This document shows positions 29,872 to 43,097 of a stretch of DNA of 59,707 nt, in pieces. The notes beneath the pieces are model-generated. The model ran no database searches and had not been told where the DNA came from. It saw nothing but the letters and a program-made list of their open reading frames with translations. The DNA comes from Spirosoma fluviale. Its GTDB lineage: Bacteria > Bacteroidota > Bacteroidia > Cytophagales > Spirosomataceae. Each line of letters begins with the position of its first letter. The first letter of the stretch is position 1. The translations under genes were made by a program, and so were the position numbers. Location of the stretch: the NCBI GenBank assembly GCA_945883625.1, contig CAMCXW010000008.1:1-59707 (forward strand), written 5' to 3'.

Positions 29872-32295
29872 CTAATCATCATCATCTTTTTTTGGTGTCG
29901 GGTAAACAAACGCCGCACGCGTAGGACCTGGATATGGGATTTTATCCCCTTTTAGCCCGTGCCATAGAACAATGTTAAATGCTACATCATTATTCGTGTC
30001 TTCCTTTTCAAAATTAAATAATTCAGATTTACGCTGCCATTCATTCTTTACCACGTTTTTAGCCTGTAAATCAACGTCGGGTACGATCGCTTTAAAATCA
30101 CTCGGCTTCGCAACCGCATCGAAACAACGCCACATCGGCATAGCAGCAGCATCATATTGCGACATCGGATTTAAGCCTAAAATCAATTCCATCGTACGCA
30201 ACATGGAACTGGTTGAATAAGCCGTATGATCAATGAAATTTCGTTTCACAAATCCTCCTGCCACATAAGCCGTACTCCGGTGCGCATCCACATGGTCGGC
30301 ACCATTTTGTGCATCATCCTCCAAAATAAAAACGGCTGTTTCATTCCAAATTGGACTTTGAGAAAGCGTTTCGATCAATTGCCCCACCGCCAAATCATTG
30401 TCCGCCACATGGGCATATGGCGTAGGCCGACCGATTCTAAGCCCTTCCGTATGATCATTACCTAAACGTAACGTATTAAATTGTGGAACTCGATTTTCCT
30501 TTACCATGGTCTCAAATTCAGTTTTCCAAATGCGTAAACGGGTCGTATCCATAATCGATAAATTATAGCTTGGAAAACTTGGATTAAAATGCTTCTCCAA
30601 TGCAGGAATGGCGGCTTTTCCATTCGTTACAAACTCACCATAGCTTCTGTATGTAACTCCATAACGATTACACATATCCCAGATATAACCGTTTTTGTTA
30701 AGGACTACATTTTTTTCTGCCTCACCGTAAATTCCACCACCTTTGGCGCCATAGCTAGTGGGCCAACTCTTCTCCATGTAATCCGTGGCGTAAGCCCCCA
30801 TGGACCAATGATGCCCATCGGCACTTACCTCCGCGTCAACAAAAAAGTTATCTAATAGAACAAATTTTTCGGATATGGCATGTTGGTTAGGTGTATACTT
30901 TTTACCAAACAGCAATAACGTTGTATCGCCATTACCGCCTTTCACATCAGATAAAACTTGATCGTAGGTCCGATTTTCTTTGATCACATAAAAGACGTAT
31001 TTGATAGGTGACTTCTCCCCCATTTTCATTGGGATTGGAAAACCAGGAGCCTCTTTATCAGCAAGTTCTGATTTCGACGGACTAAAAGATGTGTTGCGAT
31101 AAACAGCTTTTGTATAGGTCTGAAGGTCTTTTTCTGTAGGCGAAGGGATGATGCTCATGGAACCCTTGAACATAGAACCGATATATTGTACCTGCTTCGG
31201 AGCATTCATATCAGCACCGTGTAATATCACTTCTTGACCATTTTTTACCGGCCGAGGTCCGTATGGATTAGCTAGGGAAGTATTCCCTTTTCCATTGGCA
31301 ACCCAAATTTTATTATTGATAAACTTCACCTGCGTTGGGAACCAACCCACCGGAATGAATCCCTTTGAGCGACTTTTTCCTAGTACGCTGACATCAAAAA
31401 CAGATAAACAATTATTATCCGCATTAGCGATGTACAAAGTTTTTGTACGCGGATCAATAGCCAAACCATTCGTCGTCGAGCCTGAAGGTGAATTTGCATA
31501 CAAAGCGGCATCCAAGGTCTCAATTAGTTTTTTAGTTGGCACATGAATAACTGAAACAGTATTATCATTGGCATTGCATACATACAATAGTTTCCCATCC
31601 TGGCTGAGTAGCATCTCATTGGGGTTGTCACCTACGGCGATAGACTGTTTCCAAGCTTGTTTATTTAGGTCAAAAATGAGTACTTGGTTACAACCCCAAC
31701 ACGAAATATATAATTCTTGTCCGTTGGGACTAATCACCGACATATACGCTTCACCGTCCAAACCAAATTGCTTTTCGATTTTTTGTGTGTTGGCATCAAT
31801 AATGTATAAACTTCGATTGTCACGCGTAACTACGTAAATTTTTGCGCGTTTTGCGTCGTAGGAAATACCTGAGGGGGCAATTCGATTGGGCCATGCGGCA
31901 CCTAAACTAATTTCATCTTTTTTTGTCAGCTTTTGCTGAATGATTTCATAGCGAACAATCTTATTATCATGACCTGCAGCGGCATATAAAAAGTGATCAT
32001 CTGGGCTAAAGGCAAGTCCATACCATGCTTTTGGAATGATAACAGAATCAATAACTTGCTCCGATTTAACATCGATAAGTAGAATACTATGTGCGCTGAC
32101 GCCATTATTCGTCACGGCAACAAGCTTTTTTGAGGTACTGATAGCCACATTTAATGGTAAATCACCTAAGGCAAACGATTTACCTGCAGGGCTTAACTTC
32201 CAGCCATTGGGCAAGGAAACAATGGGTGACATTTTCTGCGCAGAAATAGCAAAAATATTACCTAAAAATAAGAGAATTAGTGCGTTGGTTTTCAT
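29872..32295 (-). CDS. YncE-like beta-propeller / phosphoesterase (alkaline-phosphatase superfamily) fusion, exported
   Basis: 807-residue exported two-domain protein. After a signal peptide (to about residue 20) an YVTN/YncE-type propeller occupies about 30-340 (repeats such as VAVTNNGVSAHSILLIDVKS, LYISCWGCNQVLIFDL, LYVCNANDNTVSVIHV, LYIANADNNCLSVFDV). A phosphoesterase domain of the phospholipase C/acid phosphatase type follows (about 425-800): YVFYVIKENRTYDQVL, DAEVSADGHHWSMGAYATDY, AVFILEDDAQNGADHVDAHR. The metal-binding Asn/Asp/His positions look intact. Likely a periplasmic or secreted phosphate-scavenging hydrolase. It is upstream of the esterase on the same strand by 124 bases. Exact substrate unknown. 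Confidence 0.82.
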   Translation of the reverse strand: MKTNALILLFLGNIFAISAQKMSPIVSLPNGWKLSPAGKSFALGDLPLNVAISTSKKLVAVTNNGVSAHSILLIDVKSEQVIDSVIIPKAWYGLAFSPDDHFLYAAAGHDNKIVRYEIIQQKLTKKDEISLGAAWPNRIAPSGISYDAKRAKIYVVTRDNRSLYIIDANTQKIEKQFGLDGEAYMSVISPNGQELYISCWGCNQVLIFDLNKQAWKQSIAVGDNPNEMLLSQDGKLLYVCNANDNTVSVIHVPTKKLIETLDAALYANSPSGSTTNGLAIDPRTKTLYIANADNNCLSVFDVSVLGKSRSKGFIPVGWFPTQVKFINNKIWVANGKGNTSLANPYGPRPVKNGQEVILHGADMNAPKQVQYIGSMFKGSMSIIPSPTEKDLQTYTKAVYRNTSFSPSKSELADKEAPGFPIPMKMGEKSPIKYVFYVIKENRTYDQVLSDVKGGNGDTTLLLFGKKYTPNQHAISEKFVLLDNFFVDAEVSADGHHWSMGAYATDYMEKSWPTSYGAKGGGIYGEAEKNVVLNKNGYIWDMCNRYGVTYRSYGEFVTNGKAAIPALEKHFNPSFPSYNLSIMDTTRLRIWKTEFETMVKENRVPQFNTLRLGNDHTEGLRIGRPTPYAHVADNDLAVGQLIETLSQSPIWNETAVFILEDDAQNGADHVDAHRSTAYVAGGFVKRNFIDHTAYSTSSMLRTMELILGLNPMSQYDAAAMPMWRCFDAVAKPSDFKAIVPDVDLQAKNVVKNEWQRKSELFNFEKEDTNNDVAFNIVLWHGLKGDKIPYPGPTRAAFVYPTPKKDDDD

Positions 32296-33659: not shown

Positions 33660-35024
33660 TTACTTCCTCAAATGGTAAGCTTTCGGTTTCGTAAAAACCC
33701 TTAAACCCACATGGGAGAGTGTTGAGCCAAAACCCGAATGCCCCCTACCGCTCCATGGTAGTGCCGCACTCACCCGATCACAACAATTCCAATAACCAGA
33801 ACCTGAATCTACTTTAGCTAAAATGGCCTCTGCCCTATTTTGGTCAACCGAATACACCCCAGCCGTTAACCCATAGTTTGTATCATTCATCAAACGAATG
33901 GCATCTGCATCATGCTCAACACGCATAATACCAATAATGGGACCAAAACTTTCCTCACGCATTAACACCATATCATTTGTCACATCCACTATGACCGTTG
34001 GCTCAAAATAATTCCCCTTCCCCTCCATGCGTTTCCCTCCCACTAGAACCCGAGCTCCCTTCGCTACCGCATCCTCCACTTGGGAAGTCAAAACATCCAA
34101 TTGCGCCTTTCGGCTCAAAACCGAAATATATACGCCATCCTCCGTGGGCAAACCTACTTTCCATGAGTTAACCTCTTCCACAAAGGCCTGCACAAACTCC
34201 TCATATACAGCCGATTGCACATAAATACGTTCAACGGAACAACAACTTTGTCCATTGTTGTAAAATGCTCCATCAGCAATTCCAGCAGCTACAGCCACCA
34301 CATCCACCACATCATCCGCCACATAAACGGGATCCTTTCCGCCTAGTTCAAGTACGCATGGAACCATCTTGGTAGCCACATGCGAATAAATTTTTTGACC
34401 CGTTTGATACGATCCCGTAAAGTAAAAACCATTAAAAGGCAGGTCTAAAAGCGCCTTACCAACATCCCCCTCCCCGATAGCCACTTGAAAAACATCCTCC
34501 GGCACGCCTGCCTCAATTAGGTAGTTGGCAATTTGCAGACCTGTCAACGACGCGTATTCAGATGGTTTGTACATGACTGCGTTACCGGCCAACAAAGCTG
34601 GCACAAAAATATTTACACCCACATTGTAGGGATAATTCCACGCTGAAATATTACAAATAACTCCTAGAGGCTCATATACAATCTTTTCTGTCAATTGATC
34701 TGAAAGCGACATGATCTCATCTGTTAAATATTGGGTGGCATGTTGGGCAAGCCAACTAGCCTTTGCACCGGCTCCATTAATTTCATTTCTACTTTGTTGC
34801 AAAGGCTTACCCATCTCAGACGTTAAAATAGCCGCTAATTCTTCGCTGTTTTCCTTAATCAAAAACACAAATTTCTCAATAATATCGATACGATTCTGAA
34901 GTGGAATTGCTGACCACGCAGAGGCTGCATGTTGTAAACGGGTAAATTTTATTGCCAAACTATCCATTGAATCTTCTTGAATAGTAGCAATTATTTCTTC
35001 AGTAGCAGGATTAATGATATGCAT
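33660..35024 (-). CDS. NAD(P)-dependent aldehyde dehydrogenase
   Basis: 454-residue ALDH, last gene of the predicted gamma-glutamyl-amine operon. Catalytic Cys261 lies in NNGQSCCSVERIY, general base Glu226 in LELGGKDP, Asn129 in SAWNYPYNVGVN and Lys153 in MYKPSEYA; GSYQTGQKI is the nucleotide loop. Slightly short compared with the ~480 residues usual for ALDHs but complete. Starts 3 bases after the PuuD-like stop. Predicted to oxidise the gamma-glutamyl-aminoaldehyde made by the iron alcohol dehydrogenase to a gamma-glutamyl-amino acid (gamma-glutamylglycine if ethanolamine is the substrate). General identity is firm; the specific aldehyde is inferred from context. Confidence 0.9.
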   Translation of the reverse strand: MHIINPATEEIIATIQEDSMDSLAIKFTRLQHAASAWSAIPLQNRIDIIEKFVFLIKENSEELAAILTSEMGKPLQQSRNEINGAGAKASWLAQHATQYLTDEIMSLSDQLTEKIVYEPLGVICNISAWNYPYNVGVNIFVPALLAGNAVMYKPSEYASLTGLQIANYLIEAGVPEDVFQVAIGEGDVGKALLDLPFNGFYFTGSYQTGQKIYSHVATKMVPCVLELGGKDPVYVADDVVDVVAVAAGIADGAFYNNGQSCCSVERIYVQSAVYEEFVQAFVEEVNSWKVGLPTEDGVYISVLSRKAQLDVLTSQVEDAVAKGARVLVGGKRMEGKGNYFEPTVIVDVTNDMVLMREESFGPIIGIMRVEHDADAIRLMNDTNYGLTAGVYSVDQNRAEAILAKVDSGSGYWNCCDRVSAALPWSGRGHSGFGSTLSHVGLRVFTKPKAYHLRK

Positions 35025-35027
35025 ATA

Positions 35028-35714
35028 TTATTTTTTTTGCATCGCTTCGATAAAAGCAAAACGAATGTTTTGTGAAAAAGCTAGGTTAAAAGCAGGAATC
35101 TGCATCCGCTCTGGATGCCACTGCACGCCTAAAAAAAAAGGTAATTCCTGATCCGCATATTCAATGGCTTCCACCACCCCATCAGTGGAACGCGCAGCAA
35201 CTTTAAGTCCGCTTCCCAACTTATCTATGCCTTGGTGATGAGCTGAGTTGACCATTCCAGAAGTAAGTCCACAAATTTTTGCTAATAAGGTATCTGAATC
35301 GACCTCAATTTGATGTTCAAAATCACCTGTAGCGGTCTTTCGGTGATTCAAAAAATCACTTTCTTGAAGATCCTGAAATAAGGTTCCGCCTAAGGCCACA
35401 TTAACTAATTGGAGGCCCCGGCAAATTGCCAATAACGGTTTATTTTGCTTTTGAGCATAGTTGAAAACCGCTATTTCAAAATGATCCCGTGATTCGTTAA
35501 AATCCGTAGAATTAGGGTAATTAGTTCGTTGATTTTGGTAAAATTGAGGATGTAAATCGATTCCACCAGTCAGCAAAAAACCATCACAACGCTCGAAATC
35601 ATGTGTATTTTGATCTTGATATGCTAAGATGATAACCTCGATATCTTCACCCGAAATCCATGTTGGATAATTTTGAAAATTGGTCGCTGATGAAGTTATT
35701 CCAATGGTGCACAT
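35028..35714 (-). CDS. Gamma-glutamyl hydrolase, class I amidotransferase fold (PuuD-like)
   Basis: 228-residue cytoplasmic hydrolase of the PuuD family, which splits gamma-glutamyl-GABA in putrescine catabolism. Catalytic triad is visible: Cys98 in AICRGLQLVNVALGG, His200 and Glu202 in GVQWHPE; substrate-side motifs GFLLTGGIDLHPQFY and MVNSAHHQGIDKLG match the family. Gap of 3 bases to the genes on both sides. In this operon it would release glutamate and the product amino acid (glycine from gamma-glutamylglycine) in the last step, recycling the glutamate used by the ligase. The sequence alone would also permit gamma-glutamyl-GABA. Confidence 0.87.
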   Translation of the reverse strand: MCTIGITSSATNFQNYPTWISGEDIEVIILAYQDQNTHDFERCDGFLLTGGIDLHPQFYQNQRTNYPNSTDFNESRDHFEIAVFNYAQKQNKPLLAICRGLQLVNVALGGTLFQDLQESDFLNHRKTATGDFEHQIEVDSDTLLAKICGLTSGMVNSAHHQGIDKLGSGLKVAARSTDGVVEAIEYADQELPFFLGVQWHPERMQIPAFNLAFSQNIRFAFIEAMQKK

Positions 35715-35717
35715 ACC

Positions 35718-36866
35718 TTATAATGCTTCCTGATAAAGTGCCCTAAAATCAGATTGAGATACGGGTTTTGGATTATTGGGATGTGCAAAATCTGCAAAAG
35801 CCAAAGCTGATAACGTATCTAAATGAGACTCTTTGACTTGAATTTCACGTAAGCGATGGGGAATCCCAACCTTTGAATTTAAGTCAAAAAGATATTGAAC
35901 TACCGATTCCCCTAACTCCGATTTCAAACCTAAGGCCTGAGCCATCCGGGCAAATCGATCCTCAAAACCCGCGATGTTAAAACGCATTCCATAAGGGATA
36001 TTAATTGCATTCGCCAACCCGTGATGTGTATCTAAAAGAGATGAAAGCGGGTGCGCTAAGGAGTGAACAACACCCAATCCTTTTTGAAACGCAATTGCAC
36101 CCATCATGGAGGCAAGCAACATTTTTGATCGCGCATTTAAATCGGGTTGTCGTACCGCATCCACCAGCGATTCCGCCACTAAACGCATCCCCTCCAAGGC
36201 AATTCCATCACACATAGGATGAAAATTTTTGGCTAAATATGCCTCCATGTTATGAGTCAATGAATCCATACCTGTGGCCGCAGTAACAAAAGCGGGTAAT
36301 TCCATGGTTAAAAGCGGGTCAGCAAAAACAATTTTGGCCAAAAGTTTCGGGGAGAATAAAATCTTTTTTTGATTTGATTCATCATCTGCAATAATGGCAG
36401 ATCTACCCACCTCACTACCCGTACCCGAGGTGGTCGGAATGGTGACAAAATGCGGAACATCGTTGGTCACATATACATCACCCCCAATTAAATCATCATA
36501 GACAAACAAATCCTCCCGATGGTTTACCTGAAGTACGATGGCACGCGCAACATCCAAAGCTGCACCTCCACCGATTCCTACTAAACAATCTCGGTTTGTT
36601 GCATCCCAAACAGCCGTTCCTGCATATACGTCCGACTTAACCGGATTTTTATGGATGGACGAAAAAACTTCTACAGATATACCTGCATGAGCTAAATCAG
36701 CACAAATATTTTTAAAAAATCCAAGTTCTGCAATCACCGGATCGGTCACGAGCAGAGGCCTAGAAAAACCATGGTTTTTTAAATAGGGGGCTAATTCTTT
36801 TACCGCTCCAGCCCCAAACCGAATAATAGTCGGGAAATTAAATTGTCTTACTTGATTAAAATCCAT
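35718..36866 (-). CDS. Iron-containing (group III) alcohol dehydrogenase
   Basis: 382-residue NAD-dependent alcohol dehydrogenase of the FucO/Adh4 type. Metal ligands by pattern: Asp201 and His205 (MDSLTHNMEAYL), His268 and His282 (HSLAHPLSSLLDTHHG). NAD motif GIGGGAALDVARAI (98-110) and IPTTSGTGSE (144-152) are intact. It starts one base after the glutamine-synthetase-like stop. In the predicted pathway it oxidises the alcohol end of gamma-glutamyl-ethanolamide to the aldehyde. Its presence where the classical Puu route has the FAD amine oxidase PuuB is the key sign that the substrate is an amino-alcohol rather than a diamine. Confidence 0.9.
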   Translation of the reverse strand: MDFNQVRQFNFPTIIRFGAGAVKELAPYLKNHGFSRPLLVTDPVIAELGFFKNICADLAHAGISVEVFSSIHKNPVKSDVYAGTAVWDATNRDCLVGIGGGAALDVARAIVLQVNHREDLFVYDDLIGGDVYVTNDVPHFVTIPTTSGTGSEVGRSAIIADDESNQKKILFSPKLLAKIVFADPLLTMELPAFVTAATGMDSLTHNMEAYLAKNFHPMCDGIALEGMRLVAESLVDAVRQPDLNARSKMLLASMMGAIAFQKGLGVVHSLAHPLSSLLDTHHGLANAINIPYGMRFNIAGFEDRFARMAQALGLKSELGESVVQYLFDLNSKVGIPHRLREIQVKESHLDTLSALAFADFAHPNNPKPVSQSDFRALYQEAL

Positions 36867-36867
36867 C

Positions 36868-38223
36868 TTAAATTATTTCAAAATACCTTCTTTTTTCCCA
36901 ATCGTTCACTACGCGGCCATATTGCTGACATTCCCACTCCCGGGAAGCTACAAAATGCTTTACAAACGTTTCACCAAATAATTCAATGGCAATGGATGAA
37001 TGTTTCATTGCCTCCGTTGCCTGATGCAAACTGCCCGGCAAACGTCCATATGAAACATCAGCGTAACCATTTCCTATAGTAGGTTCTTGCAAAGCTAATT
37101 GATGTTGAATGCCATACAAACCACTCGCTAAACAGGCGGCCATGGCCAAATATGGATTCACATCTGAGCCTACCACCCGCGTTTCAAGCCGTGTTGATTT
37201 CTTACTTCCAGGAAGAGCACGCAAAGCAACCGTCCGGTTGTCCACTGCCCAAGTAAGCGTTGTGGGAGCCCAAGCTCCTTCCACTAAACGCTTATACGAA
37301 TTGATCGTAGGCGCAAACATGGGTAAAATAAATGGCAAACAATGGAGTTGGCCCGCAATATAATGCCGCATGGTTGCACTCATTCTTTGCTCATCCATTT
37401 CGTCAAAAAACAAATTTTTAGAGGCGCCTGCATCCCAAAGACTTTGATGCACATGCCCACTACAACCTGGTAAACGTTCATCCCATTTGGCCATAAATGT
37501 GGCCATAATACCCTGCTTATAGGCTAATTCTTTTACTGATGATTTAAACAAAACAGCCCGGTCGGCAGCTTCTAATATACCTGAATAAGTTATCGCAGCT
37601 TCATAAACGCCCGGACCTGTTTCAGTGTGTAAACCTTCTAATGGAATTCCGAAAGATCCTAAATCCGAAAATAGTGATTTGAAAAAATCATTGTGTAAAG
37701 TGCTTCGTAAAACTGAATAACCAAACATTCCAGGACTTAAGGGTTTTAAATTTTGGAAATTCTTTTCATGCACGGAAGCAGGTGTTTCCTCAAAATTAAA
37801 CCACTCAAATTCTTGACTAAAGAATGGGGTAAATCCGGATTTTTGAGCCCGATCTATAACTTTTTCGATTAAATTTCGTGGACAAACAGCAGCGCTATGT
37901 TGTGGGGAATCAATCAATTCACACAGAAAAAAAGGAATATTGTTTTCCCAAGGGATCATTCTAAAGGAAGAAAGATCAATGCGCGCAGGGGCGTCAGGAT
38001 AGCCAGAATGCCAACCTGTATACTGAGAATTTTCATACGCCACATCGGCCATGTCCCACCCAAAAACCACATTACAGAAACCCATTTCTGAATGGATAAC
38101 AGAGAAAAATTTCTCAGTACTAATGTACTTCCCGCGTAAAACCCCATCAATATCTACCAAAGCGACTTTTACTCGTTGGTCTGGATGTTCTCGCACGTAA
38201 TCAAAAATTTGATTCTCCGTCAT
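36868..38223 (-). CDS. Glutamine-synthetase-like gamma-glutamyl-amine ligase (GlnA4/PuuA type)
   Basis: 451-residue GS-fold ligase. Catalytic landmarks: Glu138-x-Glu140 (FSQEFEWF), HTETGPGVYEAAI (199-211), His257-Val-His259 (GCSGHVHQSL), TINSYKRLVEGAWAPTTLTWAVDNRT (306-331, spans the nucleotide/glutamate region) and LETRVVGSD (346-354). The WAPTTLTW-VDNRT form is that of non-canonical GS relatives that glutamylate amines (PuuA, gamma-glutamylethanolamide synthetase GlnA4) rather than of GlnA, and the adenylylation Tyr loop of GlnA is not recognisable. Lies 7 bases after the permease. Predicted reaction: ATP + glutamate + ethanolamine (or a similar amine) to the gamma-glutamyl-amide. Confidence 0.85.
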   Translation of the reverse strand: MTENQIFDYVREHPDQRVKVALVDIDGVLRGKYISTEKFFSVIHSEMGFCNVVFGWDMADVAYENSQYTGWHSGYPDAPARIDLSSFRMIPWENNIPFFLCELIDSPQHSAAVCPRNLIEKVIDRAQKSGFTPFFSQEFEWFNFEETPASVHEKNFQNLKPLSPGMFGYSVLRSTLHNDFFKSLFSDLGSFGIPLEGLHTETGPGVYEAAITYSGILEAADRAVLFKSSVKELAYKQGIMATFMAKWDERLPGCSGHVHQSLWDAGASKNLFFDEMDEQRMSATMRHYIAGQLHCLPFILPMFAPTINSYKRLVEGAWAPTTLTWAVDNRTVALRALPGSKKSTRLETRVVGSDVNPYLAMAACLASGLYGIQHQLALQEPTIGNGYADVSYGRLPGSLHQATEAMKHSSIAIELFGETFVKHFVASREWECQQYGRVVNDWEKRRYFEII

Positions 38224-38230
38224 GATGACC

Positions 38231-39565
38231 TTATTTTTTTGGAAAAAACAACTTAAAAAACAGCAAGCAAATTAGGATGATCCCAGCATAAATAAAAAAC
38301 AAATTTGAATTATTGTATGCAATTAAAAGGAAAGAAGCACCTGAGAGTACGAGGGCAATTAGTGGGGTCCACGGGTACCCAGGAACTGAAAATGGCCTTG
38401 CTAAATTAGGGGCATTCCTGCGTAATTGAAGTAATGAAAGCATGGCAATAAAATACAGTGTCAAGGCACCCATTACGGAAACCGTTATTATTTCAGCCGT
38501 CTTATTTGTCAATAATGCAGCGATTCCGATCCCCATATTGACGAAAAGTGCATTGGCAGGCGTTAAAAATTTAGGATGTAATTTTCCTAAAAATTGGGGA
38601 GCAAAACCTTTCAATCCAAATTCGTACGTTGAACGACCCGCTGCTAAAATTAACCCATGAAAAGAAGCAATTAAGCCAAAAAGCCCCACCGTCAGAAGTA
38701 AGTGAAATAACAAGGAATTCGTTCCCACAATTTGACCCATCGCTAGGGGAAGTGGGGAGTCAGAGGTTTCACCAGAAAGCCCATTCTTAAAAACAATGGC
38801 TTCCCAACCACCTACACCAATCGCGGCAAAAAATACGAGCACACATAAAATAACGAGCGTGAATAGTGCGGAACCAAAACCGCGTTGAATATCTTTCTGC
38901 GGATTTTTCGCCTCTTCGGCTACATTTGCCAAACCCTCAATGCCTAAGAAAAACCAAATCGCAAAGGGCAAAGAGGCAACAACTCCATACCAACCATTCG
39001 GCCAGGCGTTTTGCTGCATATTCGCCCATTTAAAATGAGGCAATGTAACCCCGGCGAAAATCAAAATTTCAACCACCGCAATAATCGTGATCCATAATTC
39101 AAAGGTTGCGGCGGCTTTAATGCCGTAAATGTTGAGCGCTGTGAATATGAAATAGGCCGATAATGAAATCCAAAGAATTGGTATATCTGGGAAAAATAGA
39201 TTAAAGTAAGCGCCAATACCAAAAGCAATTGCGGGTGGAGCAAAAATAAATTCGATCATTTGGGCTAAACCAGCAATAAATCCAATTTGATTCCCAAAGG
39301 CTTTCGTTGCATAATCGAAAACACCGCCAGCCTTCGGAATAGCGCAAGCTAATTCCGCGTAAGAAAAACTAAAACACGTATAGAGCAAAATAACGAGGAT
39401 CGTCGCGAGGGCCAACCCAAGTGTTCCTCCTTCTTTTAGCCCTAAATTCCATCCGAAATACATCCCAGAAATGACATAACCAACACCCAGGCCCCATAAC
39501 ATCAAGGGGCTTAGGACTTTTTTCATGTGAGCTTGATGCTCACTATCGCTTGAATTAAGTTGCAT
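38231..39565 (-). CDS. APC-superfamily amine permease, ethanolamine-permease-like
   Basis: 444-residue inner-membrane permease with about 12 hydrophobic segments. The N-terminal VGYVISGMYFGWNLGLKEGG closely fits ethanolamine permeases of the APC superfamily, and AYAELACAIPKAGG-like FSYAELACAIPKAGGVFDYA, FAIWFFLGIEGLANVAEEAKNP and ILAAGRSTYEFGLKGFAP are also typical. First gene of the operon 39565-33660. No regulator is adjacent; two direct repeats (39593-39602 and 39646-39655) lie upstream. The substrate inference (ethanolamine) comes from family resemblance and agrees with the downstream enzymes; other short amines or amino acids remain possible. Confidence 0.83.
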   Translation of the reverse strand: MQLNSSDSEHQAHMKKVLSPLMLWGLGVGYVISGMYFGWNLGLKEGGTLGLALATILVILLYTCFSFSYAELACAIPKAGGVFDYATKAFGNQIGFIAGLAQMIEFIFAPPAIAFGIGAYFNLFFPDIPILWISLSAYFIFTALNIYGIKAAATFELWITIIAVVEILIFAGVTLPHFKWANMQQNAWPNGWYGVVASLPFAIWFFLGIEGLANVAEEAKNPQKDIQRGFGSALFTLVILCVLVFFAAIGVGGWEAIVFKNGLSGETSDSPLPLAMGQIVGTNSLLFHLLLTVGLFGLIASFHGLILAAGRSTYEFGLKGFAPQFLGKLHPKFLTPANALFVNMGIGIAALLTNKTAEIITVSVMGALTLYFIAMLSLLQLRRNAPNLARPFSVPGYPWTPLIALVLSGASFLLIAYNNSNLFFIYAGIILICLLFFKLFFPKK

Positions 39566-39703: not shown

Positions 39704-40879
39704 TTACTTAGCCGTCAGCTCAAGTAACCTTCCTCCATCCTCCACACTCACATAAATTTTACCTGCAGGCCCCATTTTCACATTCCGTATGCGGCCAAAA
39801 TCTGGGAGTAAAATGGTTTCAATTCCAGGAATACCATTTGTCATTTTTATATTAAGTAAATGCTTTCGTGTCAAACTTCCCATCAATAAATTGCCATTCC
39901 AATCTTTAAACGAAGTATGATTGATAAAAGTAAGTCCGGAAGGAGCAAGAGCCGGTGTCCATGTCTTTAAGGGCGCAACAATCCCAGGCGCCGTGTGTCC
40001 ATTACTAATTGTCGTTCCATTGTAATTTATGCCAACGCTATACAAAGGCCAACCGAAATTATTTCCCGCTTCGACTCGATTAAGCTCACAGCCACCACTT
40101 GGCCCATGTTCATTAACAAAAAGCCGTCCTGACTTCGGTTCAAAAGCCATTCCCTGCGGATTTCGATGTCCATAACTATATAGGGTACTGCGTTGTGTTT
40201 GGCCAGGAAGGATCGGATTATCGCTGGGCACACTTCCATCAATATTCATTCGATGTATTTTGCCCCAGAATGTAGTGGTTCGTTGGCTATTTTGATGTGG
40301 ACTTGAGGCTCCACCCAAACTACCTCCTCCCCCTTCCCCAACACTCCAATATAATTTCCCATCGGGACCAAAAGCAATTCGACTTCCAAAGTGCCCATTC
40401 CACGTAGAGGCAGATTCCGTCGTGTGCAACAAGCGCCAATCAGTGGCTACATTTCCACTTAAGGTAAAGCGGGCTAGGGAAAGAAAACCGCCAGTGATGC
40501 TGTAAGTAACGAACACCGACTTGCTAGTACCAAAATCAGGCGCAATAGCCAAATCTAATAATCCACCCTGCCCTACTGCCGAAATATTAGTAGGTAATCC
40601 CGTAATCCGCGTGGTACTTCGAGTGAGGTTATCAAACAACTGAATTGTCCCTGATTTTTGGGTGTAAAGTAGATTGCCATCAGGCAAAATATCAAAACCC
40701 CAAATGATGCCTTGGTTATTGAGTAAGGTCGTAATTTTAATTTCCGGTATGCCCGTTGGTGAAGTACTCGCCAAAGGAGATTCTATCTCTTTTGAACAGG
40801 AAAACATGAGCAATAAAAATAGCACGGAAATCTGTACGAGGCATGCCTTGAGATAATAGAAAAATCTGCTTAGGTTCAT
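39704..40879 (-). CDS. PQQ-dependent aldose sugar dehydrogenase, lipoprotein
   Basis: 391-residue six-bladed propeller of the soluble glucose/sorbosone dehydrogenase (Asd/YliI) type that oxidises aldoses to lactones with PQQ. The N-terminus has a long hydrophobic signal and lipobox MFSC (about residue 28), so it is probably an outer-membrane lipoprotein facing the periplasm or the surface. Family motifs: GLLDLAIAPDFG, YWSVGEGGGGSLGGASS, YSYGHRNPQGMAFEP, LFVNEHGPSGGCELNRVEAGNNFGWP and LPDFGRIRNVKMGPAGKIYVSVED. No PQQ synthesis genes are in the window, so PQQ may be made elsewhere or scavenged. It follows the quinohaemoprotein gene by 24 bases; likely one transcript. Confidence 0.87.
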   Translation of the reverse strand: MNLSRFFYYLKACLVQISVLFLLLMFSCSKEIESPLASTSPTGIPEIKITTLLNNQGIIWGFDILPDGNLLYTQKSGTIQLFDNLTRSTTRITGLPTNISAVGQGGLLDLAIAPDFGTSKSVFVTYSITGGFLSLARFTLSGNVATDWRLLHTTESASTWNGHFGSRIAFGPDGKLYWSVGEGGGGSLGGASSPHQNSQRTTTFWGKIHRMNIDGSVPSDNPILPGQTQRSTLYSYGHRNPQGMAFEPKSGRLFVNEHGPSGGCELNRVEAGNNFGWPLYSVGINYNGTTISNGHTAPGIVAPLKTWTPALAPSGLTFINHTSFKDWNGNLLMGSLTRKHLLNIKMTNGIPGIETILLPDFGRIRNVKMGPAGKIYVSVEDGGRLLELTAK

Positions 40880-40903
40880 TTTAAATTAGCTTCAAATTAC
40901 AGC

Positions 40904-43054
40904 TTATTTTCTTGTGTTATTTCCCAAAGAAAAAGCAACATATCGATCACCTGATTTAGTTTTTAGTTTCCCTCCTCCACAGGCGATGACTACATATTGA
41001 ACTCCGCCAACGGCATAGATGCTTGGAGAGGAATACCCCGCAGCGGGTAATTTAGCCTCCCACACAATTTTTCCGGTTTGTCGATCAAAAGCACGAAACA
41101 TTTCATCTTTTGTCGCTGCGATAAAAATCAACCCGCCTGCCGTTACTGCTGGTCCACCATATAAATCAGTACCCGTAGGCGCAATACCTTTTAACGTCAA
41201 TTCGGGATATTCGCCCAAAGGAACCTGCCAAAGGTGCTTCCCCGTATTCATTTCGATTGCGGTTAAAGTTCCCCACGGGGGTCTGCTTACCGGATATCCT
41301 TGACTATCATACCAGCGCGTATACCCAGAGCTAGTAAATGGGGAAAAATCCAAACTTGACTTTTTAAATGGCCCCTCAACCGCTACATTTAATCCTTGAA
41401 CATAAGCCAAAACCGCTTTTTTTTCTGCAGTGGAGAGAAAATTAAATGCAGGCATTCTACCTCGACCCTTACTTAAAATTTGTGTCAAAAGTTGTTCCGA
41501 ATATTTTTTATGAGCTTCTCGAACGCCAGGTATTGTTCCATCTTCGTTTCCTTCCCGGTTTACACCGTGGCAACTTTGGCAATGCTGAACGTATAAAGAT
41601 TTTCCAGAGTTTTCAATCGTTTTATCAACGGGTACAAGCGAACTATATACCGGATTTTGTTTGGAAGGGATATACATCACCTGTTTTTCGTCAACAGCGG
41701 CGCCACCCCACTGCGCGCCTCCATCAGTACCCGGGAAAAAAACAGTTTTCTTGGTTAAACTCATTGGAATAAAGGGCTGACCCGTCTGGGAAGCACGAAG
41801 CATCGTGATGATTTCAGCTTTATTTGAGGCCCATTCATTTACATCTTTTTCAGTGAACGTTTGTTTTGCAAACGGTAAGGGCCAAAGAGGAATTGGCTGT
41901 GTTTTTGATGTTTTTTCACCGATTACATCAGATGCAGGAAATGGTCTTTCCTCTATTGGAAAAATAGGCTTACCCGTAACCCGGTCAAACACAAACATAA
42001 ATCCTTGTTTGCTCAAAATAGAAACTACATCACGCTTTTTACCCGCATGCAAGATCGTGAATAAATTAGGGGGTGCGGGAATATCTCGATCCCAAATATC
42101 ATGATGTACCGTTTGAAAATGCCAAAGGCGCTTTCCAGTTCGAATATCCAAAGCCAAAAGGCAGTTGGCAAATAAATTATCCCCCTTTCGATTTCCTCCA
42201 TAAAAATCAAACGCAGCAGAACCAGTTGGCACATACACAATACCTCGCTTGGAGTCTACTGCCATCCCCATCCAACTATTTGCCCCGCCCACATGCACAT
42301 AATTCGACTTTTCCCACGTTTTGTATCCAAATTCTCCGGGTTTTGGAATGGTGTGAAACGTCCAAATTAATCGACCAGAGGATGCGTCAAAAGCCCGAAC
42401 ATCACCAAGTAAGGCAGAAGCCGACTCAGAGACACGTGTGCCTACGATCAATGTATTTTTATAAATGGAAATTGGCGTATTTAGCACTGCATATTCATCA
42501 GCTCCGGGACGTTTTAATCCATCCACTAAATTTATTTTTCCTTTATCACCAAACGTCTTAACCGGTTCTCCTGTAGAGGCATCTAATGCAAATAGAAAAG
42601 ATCCAAATCCAAAGAATACTACAGGTGAATGATTTGTTGGTGCATAATATGCCACACCCCGACTAGACATGGCAGGCGTATTTTCCCGAATTGTTGTTTT
42701 CCAAATTTCTCGACCACTTTGGGCATCTATAGCGAAGGCTTGTGATCCCGCAGAAACCCCGTATAAAATCCCTTTTATGATAATGGGATTACATTGCATT
42801 TGGGTGGTATGGTGAATTGTATCTGCCCCACCGGAGGCATAGACCCATGCAAGCTTTAAATTCTTAACATTAGCGGGCGTAATTTGCGCAAGCGGTGAAT
42901 AGTGATTTCGAGTATCACCTCCATGATATCCTTCCCAATCCGTAAATTCAGGAGAGGTAAAAAAGCTAAAAAAGCCAATTAAAAATATTGATGCCAAAAA
43001 TCTCACGCGGGAAGATAAAAAATATTTTTTGGTTTTTCGAGGAGAATTTTTCAT
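40904..43054 (-). CDS. PQQ-dependent quinohaemoprotein glucose/alcohol dehydrogenase
   Basis: 716-residue eight-bladed PQQ propeller with an inserted cytochrome c domain. The start at 43054 (MKNSPRKTKKYF) is preferred over 43087, which would intrude on the divergent GH31 leader. N-terminal signal or anchor (FLASIFLIGFFSFF), then DWEGYHGGDTRNHYSPLAQI typical of glucose dehydrogenase-like quinoproteins. Haem site CQSCHG at about residues 492-497 with RMPAFN as candidate axial Met; the propeller resumes after it (GTLTAIEMNTGKHLWQVPLGE, AGGLIFIAATKDEMFRAFD). Likely oxidises a sugar or polyol at the periplasmic face and passes electrons to the respiratory chain. Pairs with the Asd-type lipoprotein gene. 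Confidence 0.87.
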   Translation of the reverse strand: MKNSPRKTKKYFLSSRVRFLASIFLIGFFSFFTSPEFTDWEGYHGGDTRNHYSPLAQITPANVKNLKLAWVYASGGADTIHHTTQMQCNPIIIKGILYGVSAGSQAFAIDAQSGREIWKTTIRENTPAMSSRGVAYYAPTNHSPVVFFGFGSFLFALDASTGEPVKTFGDKGKINLVDGLKRPGADEYAVLNTPISIYKNTLIVGTRVSESASALLGDVRAFDASSGRLIWTFHTIPKPGEFGYKTWEKSNYVHVGGANSWMGMAVDSKRGIVYVPTGSAAFDFYGGNRKGDNLFANCLLALDIRTGKRLWHFQTVHHDIWDRDIPAPPNLFTILHAGKKRDVVSILSKQGFMFVFDRVTGKPIFPIEERPFPASDVIGEKTSKTQPIPLWPLPFAKQTFTEKDVNEWASNKAEIITMLRASQTGQPFIPMSLTKKTVFFPGTDGGAQWGGAAVDEKQVMYIPSKQNPVYSSLVPVDKTIENSGKSLYVQHCQSCHGVNREGNEDGTIPGVREAHKKYSEQLLTQILSKGRGRMPAFNFLSTAEKKAVLAYVQGLNVAVEGPFKKSSLDFSPFTSSGYTRWYDSQGYPVSRPPWGTLTAIEMNTGKHLWQVPLGEYPELTLKGIAPTGTDLYGGPAVTAGGLIFIAATKDEMFRAFDRQTGKIVWEAKLPAAGYSSPSIYAVGGVQYVVIACGGGKLKTKSGDRYVAFSLGNNTRK

Positions 43055-43097
43055 TTTACTTAGTGAAAAAAATACACCATTTAGCAAAAACCAACTG

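Follow-up and report, generated by a model that had tools for sequence, protein, structure and literature searches.

The DNA analysed here (the window: 59,707 nucleotides of Spirosoma fluviale, assembly GCA_945883625.1, contig CAMCXW010000008.1, forward strand) belongs to a metagenome-assembled genome (MAG) of 2.3 Mb in 86 contigs, 88.8% complete, and carries a minus-strand operon of five genes. These encode a permease, a glutamine synthetase (GS)-like ligase, an iron alcohol dehydrogenase (ADH), a class C26 hydrolase and an aldehyde dehydrogenase (ALDH). All five open reading frames start with ATG and are uninterrupted, and the intergenic gaps along the operon are 7, 1, 3 and 3 bases, bearing out the tight spacing of 1-7 bases reported in a preliminary description made from the sequence alone. 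The features are as follows.

33660-39565, minus strand: five-gene operon
38231..39565, minus strand: gene 1, Eat-type APC ethanolamine permease by its TIGR00908 match, 444 aa
36868..38223, minus strand: GS-like putative gamma-glutamyl-amine ligase, 451 aa, Pfam Gln-synt_C
35718..36866, minus strand: iron ADH, proposed gamma-glutamylethanolamide dehydrogenase, 382 aa, Fe-ADH domains
35028..35714, minus strand: PuuD-type class C26 hydrolase, proposed gamma-glutamylglycine hydrolase, 228 aa, Peptidase_C26 at 188.8 bits
33660..35024, minus strand: ALDH, proposed gamma-glutamyl-aminoacetaldehyde dehydrogenase, 454 aa, Aldedh at 421 bits
39566..39703, minus strand: upstream intergenic region with a TTTG-N19-TAatATTT stretch, read from the sequence

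The residues named in that description for the three enzymes downstream of the ligase were all located: the four metal ligands of the Fe-ADH (D201, H205, H268 and H282, aligned with E. coli FucO, EutG and YiaY), C98 and H200-P201-E202 of the hydrolase, and C261 of the ALDH, which also has LELGG at 225-229. The hydrolase keeps its catalytic residues and belongs to the C26/PuuD type, not the N-formylglutamate-amidohydrolase type; it is 35% identical to E. coli PuuD and, over the aligned part, 41% identical to a homologue on the plasmid that encodes the ligase IpuC. On a midpoint-rooted tree, a weak test with three outside Fe-ADHs only, the window Fe-ADH grouped with those of ethanolamine-type clusters, apart from the three E. 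coli Fe-ADHs. The stretch upstream of the operon bears a faint resemblance to the Bacteroidota promoter consensus, and a sigma-70 promoter scan found no excess over shuffled sequence (13 found versus 15.8 expected).

Together, these genes probably encode ethanolamine catabolism by gamma-glutamylation. The Eat permease would import ethanolamine, the GS-like ligase would join it to the gamma-carboxyl of glutamate using ATP, and the iron ADH would oxidise the hydroxyl of the resulting gamma-glutamylethanolamide to an aldehyde; the ALDH would then convert this aldehyde into gamma-glutamylglycine, which the C26 hydrolase would cleave to glutamate, for recycling, and glycine, which could feed into either the glycine cleavage system or the serine hydroxymethyltransferase (SHMT) reaction. 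Because GcvP and SHMT genes are present in the genome, glycine could be used by the host. We infer each reaction, the order of reactions and the substrate from the genes, their families, active-site residues, conserved order and fusions, with ethanolamine the likeliest substrate. The operon had been described as complete, which is accurate in that every step has a gene and does not extend to demonstrated activity.

As the preliminary description had anticipated, the permease sides with ethanolamine rather than amino-acid carriers: it scored 409.2 bits against TIGR00908 (ethanolamine permease; curated cut-off 381.75), compared with 145.9 bits for the best amino-acid-transporter model, so that ethanolamine uptake is predicted by family membership. 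Identity to PuuP is 22%. Seventeen plasmid homologues (E 1e-60) are 42-45% identical to it, 15 of them named eat, and eutBC adjoins the Eat homologue in five of the seven plasmid contexts examined. At one further locus (L099), a 60%-identical permease accompanies a ligase of the ethanolamine-type clade (described below), a short-chain dehydrogenase/reductase, an ALDH and a glutamine amidotransferase (GATase); Eat-type permeases therefore occur with two kinds of ligase.

We next consider how far the gene set recurs. A scan of named genomes, from which the best 80 of 587 ligase matches were kept, was combined with 40 regions from other genomes to give 120 loci, picked by ligase similarity and so not an unbiased survey, with 116 distinct ligases (four repeats). 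Ninety-five of these fall in class A1, defined by a ligase at least 45% identical to the window's and no kinase-like/HAD genes, while 16 belong to a kinase-like/HAD operon and five lie below 45% identity. The full set of permease, ligase, ADH, hydrolase and ALDH was found at 60 of the 79 distinct A1 loci that are sufficiently flanked. Two of the 79 lack the permease, five were scored as lacking the hydrolase, and one as lacking both. Re-examination of the six hydrolase-negative loci revealed hydrolase(C26)-ALDH fusions of 692-699 aa at four (L074:8543-10642, L136:9566-11647, L139:8150-10240 and L144:4089-6167), an interrupted fusion at L135 and a true absence at L169. Of these six, L139 is the one also scored without a permease, and the remaining three intact fusions add three more loci with all activities. 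Fusion in four relatives supports the hydrolase and ALDH acting in one pathway. All 68 loci holding the five genes (64 distinct ligases) have them on one strand in identical order, a grouping that exceeds chance. The order is kept across families, with carriers including Pedobacter, Chitinophaga, Parapedobacter, Olivibacter, Emticicia, Lacihabitans, Cyclobacterium and Niabella. One contig labelled Beijerinckiaceae (L162) also has a five-gene operon, with a ligase 65% identical to the window's, which either transfer or faulty binning would explain.

Of 395 evenly sampled Bacteroidota genomes, 52 have a ligase match at E 1e-60: eight at 62% identity or above (window included), 33 at 53-60% and 11 at 32-37%. 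The other seven in the first group, all inspected, have the operon, one with a fusion. All 15 loci inspected among the 33 have the kinase-like/HAD operon, and five of the 11 most distant loci were inspected. EutB occurs in 12 of the 395 genomes and in none of the eight with the five-gene type, numbers too small to indicate exclusion. Six of the 12 EutB-positive genomes also have a 53-60% GS-like ligase, compared with 33 of 395 overall, which may reflect lineage only.

The kinase-like/HAD operon is a different conserved Bacteroidota arrangement, seen at 16 loci (L072, L081-L095), in which a GS-like ligase accompanies a protein of about 347 aa and an HAD-IIA phosphatase; in one example (L084:4138-7413) its neighbour is a GS-family gene that includes a beta-grasp domain. 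The 347-aa protein had no Pfam match in the two copies scanned (L084, L072) and no NCBIfam match for the L084 copy. Its structural model (pLDDT 85.8) resembles kinases of small molecules, among them AmiN, N-acetylhexosamine kinase and aminopropanol kinase, with sequence identities of 12-16%. At three other loci (L115, L118 and L138, from two Emticicia genomes and one Cytophagaceae MAG), a ligase of the window's clade sits between genes of 401 aa and 442-444 aa, which at L118, the sole one of the three scanned, are ATP-grasp-like (just under the Pfam cut-off) and a GntP permease.

The ligase active site is intact, as had been claimed: an alignment with E. coli GlnA shows that the metal and substrate residues E129, E131, E212, E220, H269, E357, R321, R339, R344 and R359 are retained. 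GlnA E327 is replaced by W318, a change that is expected of an amine ligase. Excerpts of PMC6529630 name the loss of E327, D50 and Y179 as separating GlnA4 and PauA7 from true glutamine synthetase; among the losses given there, E327 is the sole clear match of the window ligase. Across the 120 aligned loci the E327 column holds W in 118 and F in two; elsewhere it is F in three ethanolamine-type references, W in IpuC and Y in PuuA. The residue does not sort substrates, since three Bacteroidota loci inside the ethanolamine-type clade (L098-L100) carry W. The ligase scores below the curated threshold of each of three models, those for type I GS, type III GS and gamma-glutamylputrescine synthetase, and the genome holds two further GS-family genes. 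Its top solved structures by phmmer, both labelled glutamine synthetase, are 11zs (302 bits) and 5dm3 (286 bits), the latter of Chromohalobacter origin.

A ligase phylogeny was built by a quick method from 80 of 131 rows, without GlnA4, GMAS or PauA sequences and with the long GlnA, PuuA and IpuC branches flagged. The window ligase falls in a 49-row clade (SH-aLRT 97), successively outside which lie the kinase-like/HAD ligases (53-59% identity), those from other clusters in Proteobacteria, and IpuC. The ligases of 5dm3, Ruegeria and Paracoccus form a separate clade (99) that includes five Bacteroidota loci and excludes the window ligase. The phylogenetic check proposed beforehand was thus run against GlnA, PuuA and IpuC, and it left the window ligase outside the ethanolamine-type clade and nearer IpuC. 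Because of this placement, the word ethanolamine rests mainly on the permease and on operon logic. Among the Proteobacteria ligases at 47-49% identity, that of Photobacterium (47%) is accompanied by genes for ALDH, iron ADH and a GATase, and that of Burkholderia by genes for ALDH and a GATase.

The same tree bears on the rival that survives best, namely that the route handles another primary amino alcohol (alaninol, that is 2-amino-1-propanol; 3-aminopropanol; or serinol) and yields alanine, or a relative of it, along with glutamate. Isopropylamine and alaninol are substrates of IpuC. The window ligase is nearer to IpuC (38.6% identity) than to the ethanolamine-type ligases (36.3-36.5%) and has W318, W56 and D60 in common with it, where the ethanolamine-type references have F, T and M; a C26-type hydrolase is also encoded on the IpuC plasmid. 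Yet the permease model is that of ethanolamine, its homologues adjoin eutBC in most contexts, and the operon is without the P450 and ferredoxin genes of the IpuC plasmid, leaving another amino alcohol an unlikely substrate.

Far less probable is a Puu-type polyamine or diamine route with an unrelated ADH. The ligase, ALDH and hydrolase each have Puu homologues, but the ligase reaches 187 bits against the gamma-glutamylputrescine synthetase model (cut-off 650) and is 29% identical to PuuA, the permease is remote from PuuP, amine oxidation is not expected of an ADH, and a search run without a positive control gave no PuuB match in the genome; the Puu route was set aside for want of PuuB and of a ligase at PuuA level. 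That the ligase is a spare glutamine synthetase beside unrelated dehydrogenases, as its family and the labels of its best structures would allow, is highly improbable and was likewise set aside, given W318 in place of Glu327 (a residue that none of the 120 aligned loci retains), 208.9 bits against the GlnA model (cut-off 429.15), the two other GS-family genes and the five-gene order kept across families. The Eut route was set aside as well, EutB not having been found in the 88.8%-complete genome (the E. coli positive control matched; EutC was not searched).

Several observations weigh against ethanolamine gamma-glutamylation. The incompleteness of the genome weakens the absences of EutB and PuuB, the latter doubly for lack of a positive control. 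In the tree the ligase is placed towards IpuC (36% to ethanolamine-type ligases versus 39% to IpuC); it has F in the Y179 column, a mild substitution that differs from the losses given in the excerpts for GlnA4 and PauA7, and its D50 region aligns too poorly to GlnA to judge. Several nearest relatives outside its clade sit in operons of other or unassigned role, such as the Bacteroidota kinase-like and HAD phosphatase operons, and two Proteobacteria ligases (47-49%) sit with an aminotransferase and a spermidine/putrescine-type ABC transporter. Eight of the 79 A1 loci lack any partner gene and three have the permease alone; of the Eat contexts without eutBC, one is beside a primary-amine oxidase and one beside an aminotransferase. 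No regulator gene adjoins the operon. On the other side stand the permease score above its cut-off, the Glu327 loss, the conservation of the five genes, the fusions and the same activities as in the Phaeobacter, Ruegeria and Paracoccus clusters, together with the Photobacterium cluster, the L099 pairing, the lack of EutB and PuuB matches, and GcvP and SHMT. An amino-alcohol gamma-glutamylation route with ethanolamine as substrate, as first proposed, appears to be the best reading: its permease prediction stood, whereas the ADH version, which the description had reached from the Puu and GlnA4 precedents, proved to be already published and the ligase lies outside the known clade.

Within the genus, the operon is an accessory trait. 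The ligase was found in 17 of 36 other same-genus genomes (nine at 88-90%, two at 81% and six at 63-64% identity), and no ligase match was found in three same-genus genomes at least 96% complete (G007, G012 and G019). The tree sets one 63-64% copy (L068) apart from the window ligase, which suggests that the two were acquired separately. A fixed genomic position was rejected, as the flanking genes differ from those of four relatives at 88-90% (L061-L064); a neighbouring symporter gene is on another contig than the operon in G001, G004, G010 and G028, whereas in G018 and G036 some 7 kb separate it from the ligase gene. On the strand of the operon and immediately upstream of it, the window encodes a glucose/sorbosone-type dehydrogenase and a pyrroloquinoline quinone (PQQ) dehydrogenase with a cytochrome c domain (39704-43087), and a phosphoesterase-family protein with a beta-propeller lies nearby (29872-32295).

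Ethanolamine from membrane lipids is a source of nitrogen and carbon in water and soil. A B12-independent route could be overlooked in Bacteroidota, because EutB is found in so few of the sampled genomes and the ligase is usually labelled glutamine synthetase. An ocean survey counted the TRAP protein EtoX, according to excerpts of PMC10132767; EtoX is not among the genes of the operon, the only part of the genome checked for it. An open-licence literature search for the route in Bacteroidetes or Bacteroidota yielded no paper, which is no proof that none has appeared.

Gamma-glutamyl ethanolamine chemistry is already published, partly as prediction (Chromohalobacter, Phaeobacter, Streptomyces), the work on C. 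salexigens and A. tumefaciens being reportedly that of Vetting et al. in 2015. As excerpts of PMC10132767 describe it, the predicted Phaeobacter MED193 pathway (ETAGA, GETADH, GAADDH, GGAH, EtoVWX) comprises a ligase, a gamma-glutamylethanolamide dehydrogenase, an aldehyde dehydrogenase, a gamma-glutamylglycine amidohydrolase and a TRAP transporter; its proteins showed higher abundance on phosphorylethanolamine, binding of ethanolamine by EtoX was seen, the genes are described as close relatives of the ones demonstrated for C. salexigens and A. tumefaciens, and the ADH version is also cited for Chromohalobacter and Agrobacterium. In Streptomyces coelicolor, GlnA4 activity was shown and later steps were predicted, and the C. 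salexigens pathway is called an in silico prediction (excerpts of PMC6529630); these ethanolamine gamma-glutamylation pathways are reviewed in PMC9397018, likewise available in excerpt.

Among other systems, E. coli Puu shares the logic of ligase, ALDH and PuuD-type hydrolase, but the window has an iron ADH in place of a PuuB match, and its permease and ligase are only distantly related to PuuP and PuuA. The IpuC region of Paenarthrobacter aurescens TC1 plasmid pTC1 has a related ligase and a C26 hydrolase; it differs in its cytochrome P450, ferredoxin and ferredoxin reductase, none of which is in the window operon, and no Eat is annotated in the 19 kb of pTC1 examined. The EutBC route shares the Eat permease family and differs in its EutB, not found in the window genome. 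The S. coelicolor route, with GlnA4 compared by description only, likewise gamma-glutamylates ethanolamine, has lost E327 and has similarly predicted later steps (PMC6529630), whereas SCO1615 is described in those excerpts as of the formylglutamate-amidohydrolase family, unlike the C26 hydrolase. The set of proposed steps is shared by the Chromohalobacter, Agrobacterium and Phaeobacter pathways, as far as excerpted, with ligase, alcohol dehydrogenase, ALDH, gamma-glutamylglycine hydrolase and uptake in one cluster. Clusters of this type on Ruegeria and Paracoccus plasmids comprise RpiR, an N-formylglutamate amidohydrolase, TRAP, a GS-like ligase, an ALDH and, as in the window, an iron ADH; their ligases share 76 and 60% identity with 5dm3. 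Compared with these known-type clusters, the window proteins are distant (ligase 36%, ADH 37-39%, ALDH 37-38% identical) and the ligase falls in another clade; a PuuD-type C26 hydrolase stands where the Ruegeria and Paracoccus clusters have the N-formylglutamate-amidohydrolase type, and an APC Eat permease where they have TRAP, while their RpiR regulator is lacking and the gene order differs. There is about an even chance that Bacteroidota assembled the route independently, recruiting an IpuC-side ligase that may have switched substrate within its own clade, taking a PuuD-type hydrolase for the formylglutamate-amidohydrolase type and APC for TRAP, and fusing hydrolase and ALDH in some lineages. 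From its genes, the window operon looks as if it works like the published pathway with distant proteins, another hydrolase family and another transporter, and it looks like a Bacteroidota variant, separately built from a different parts list.

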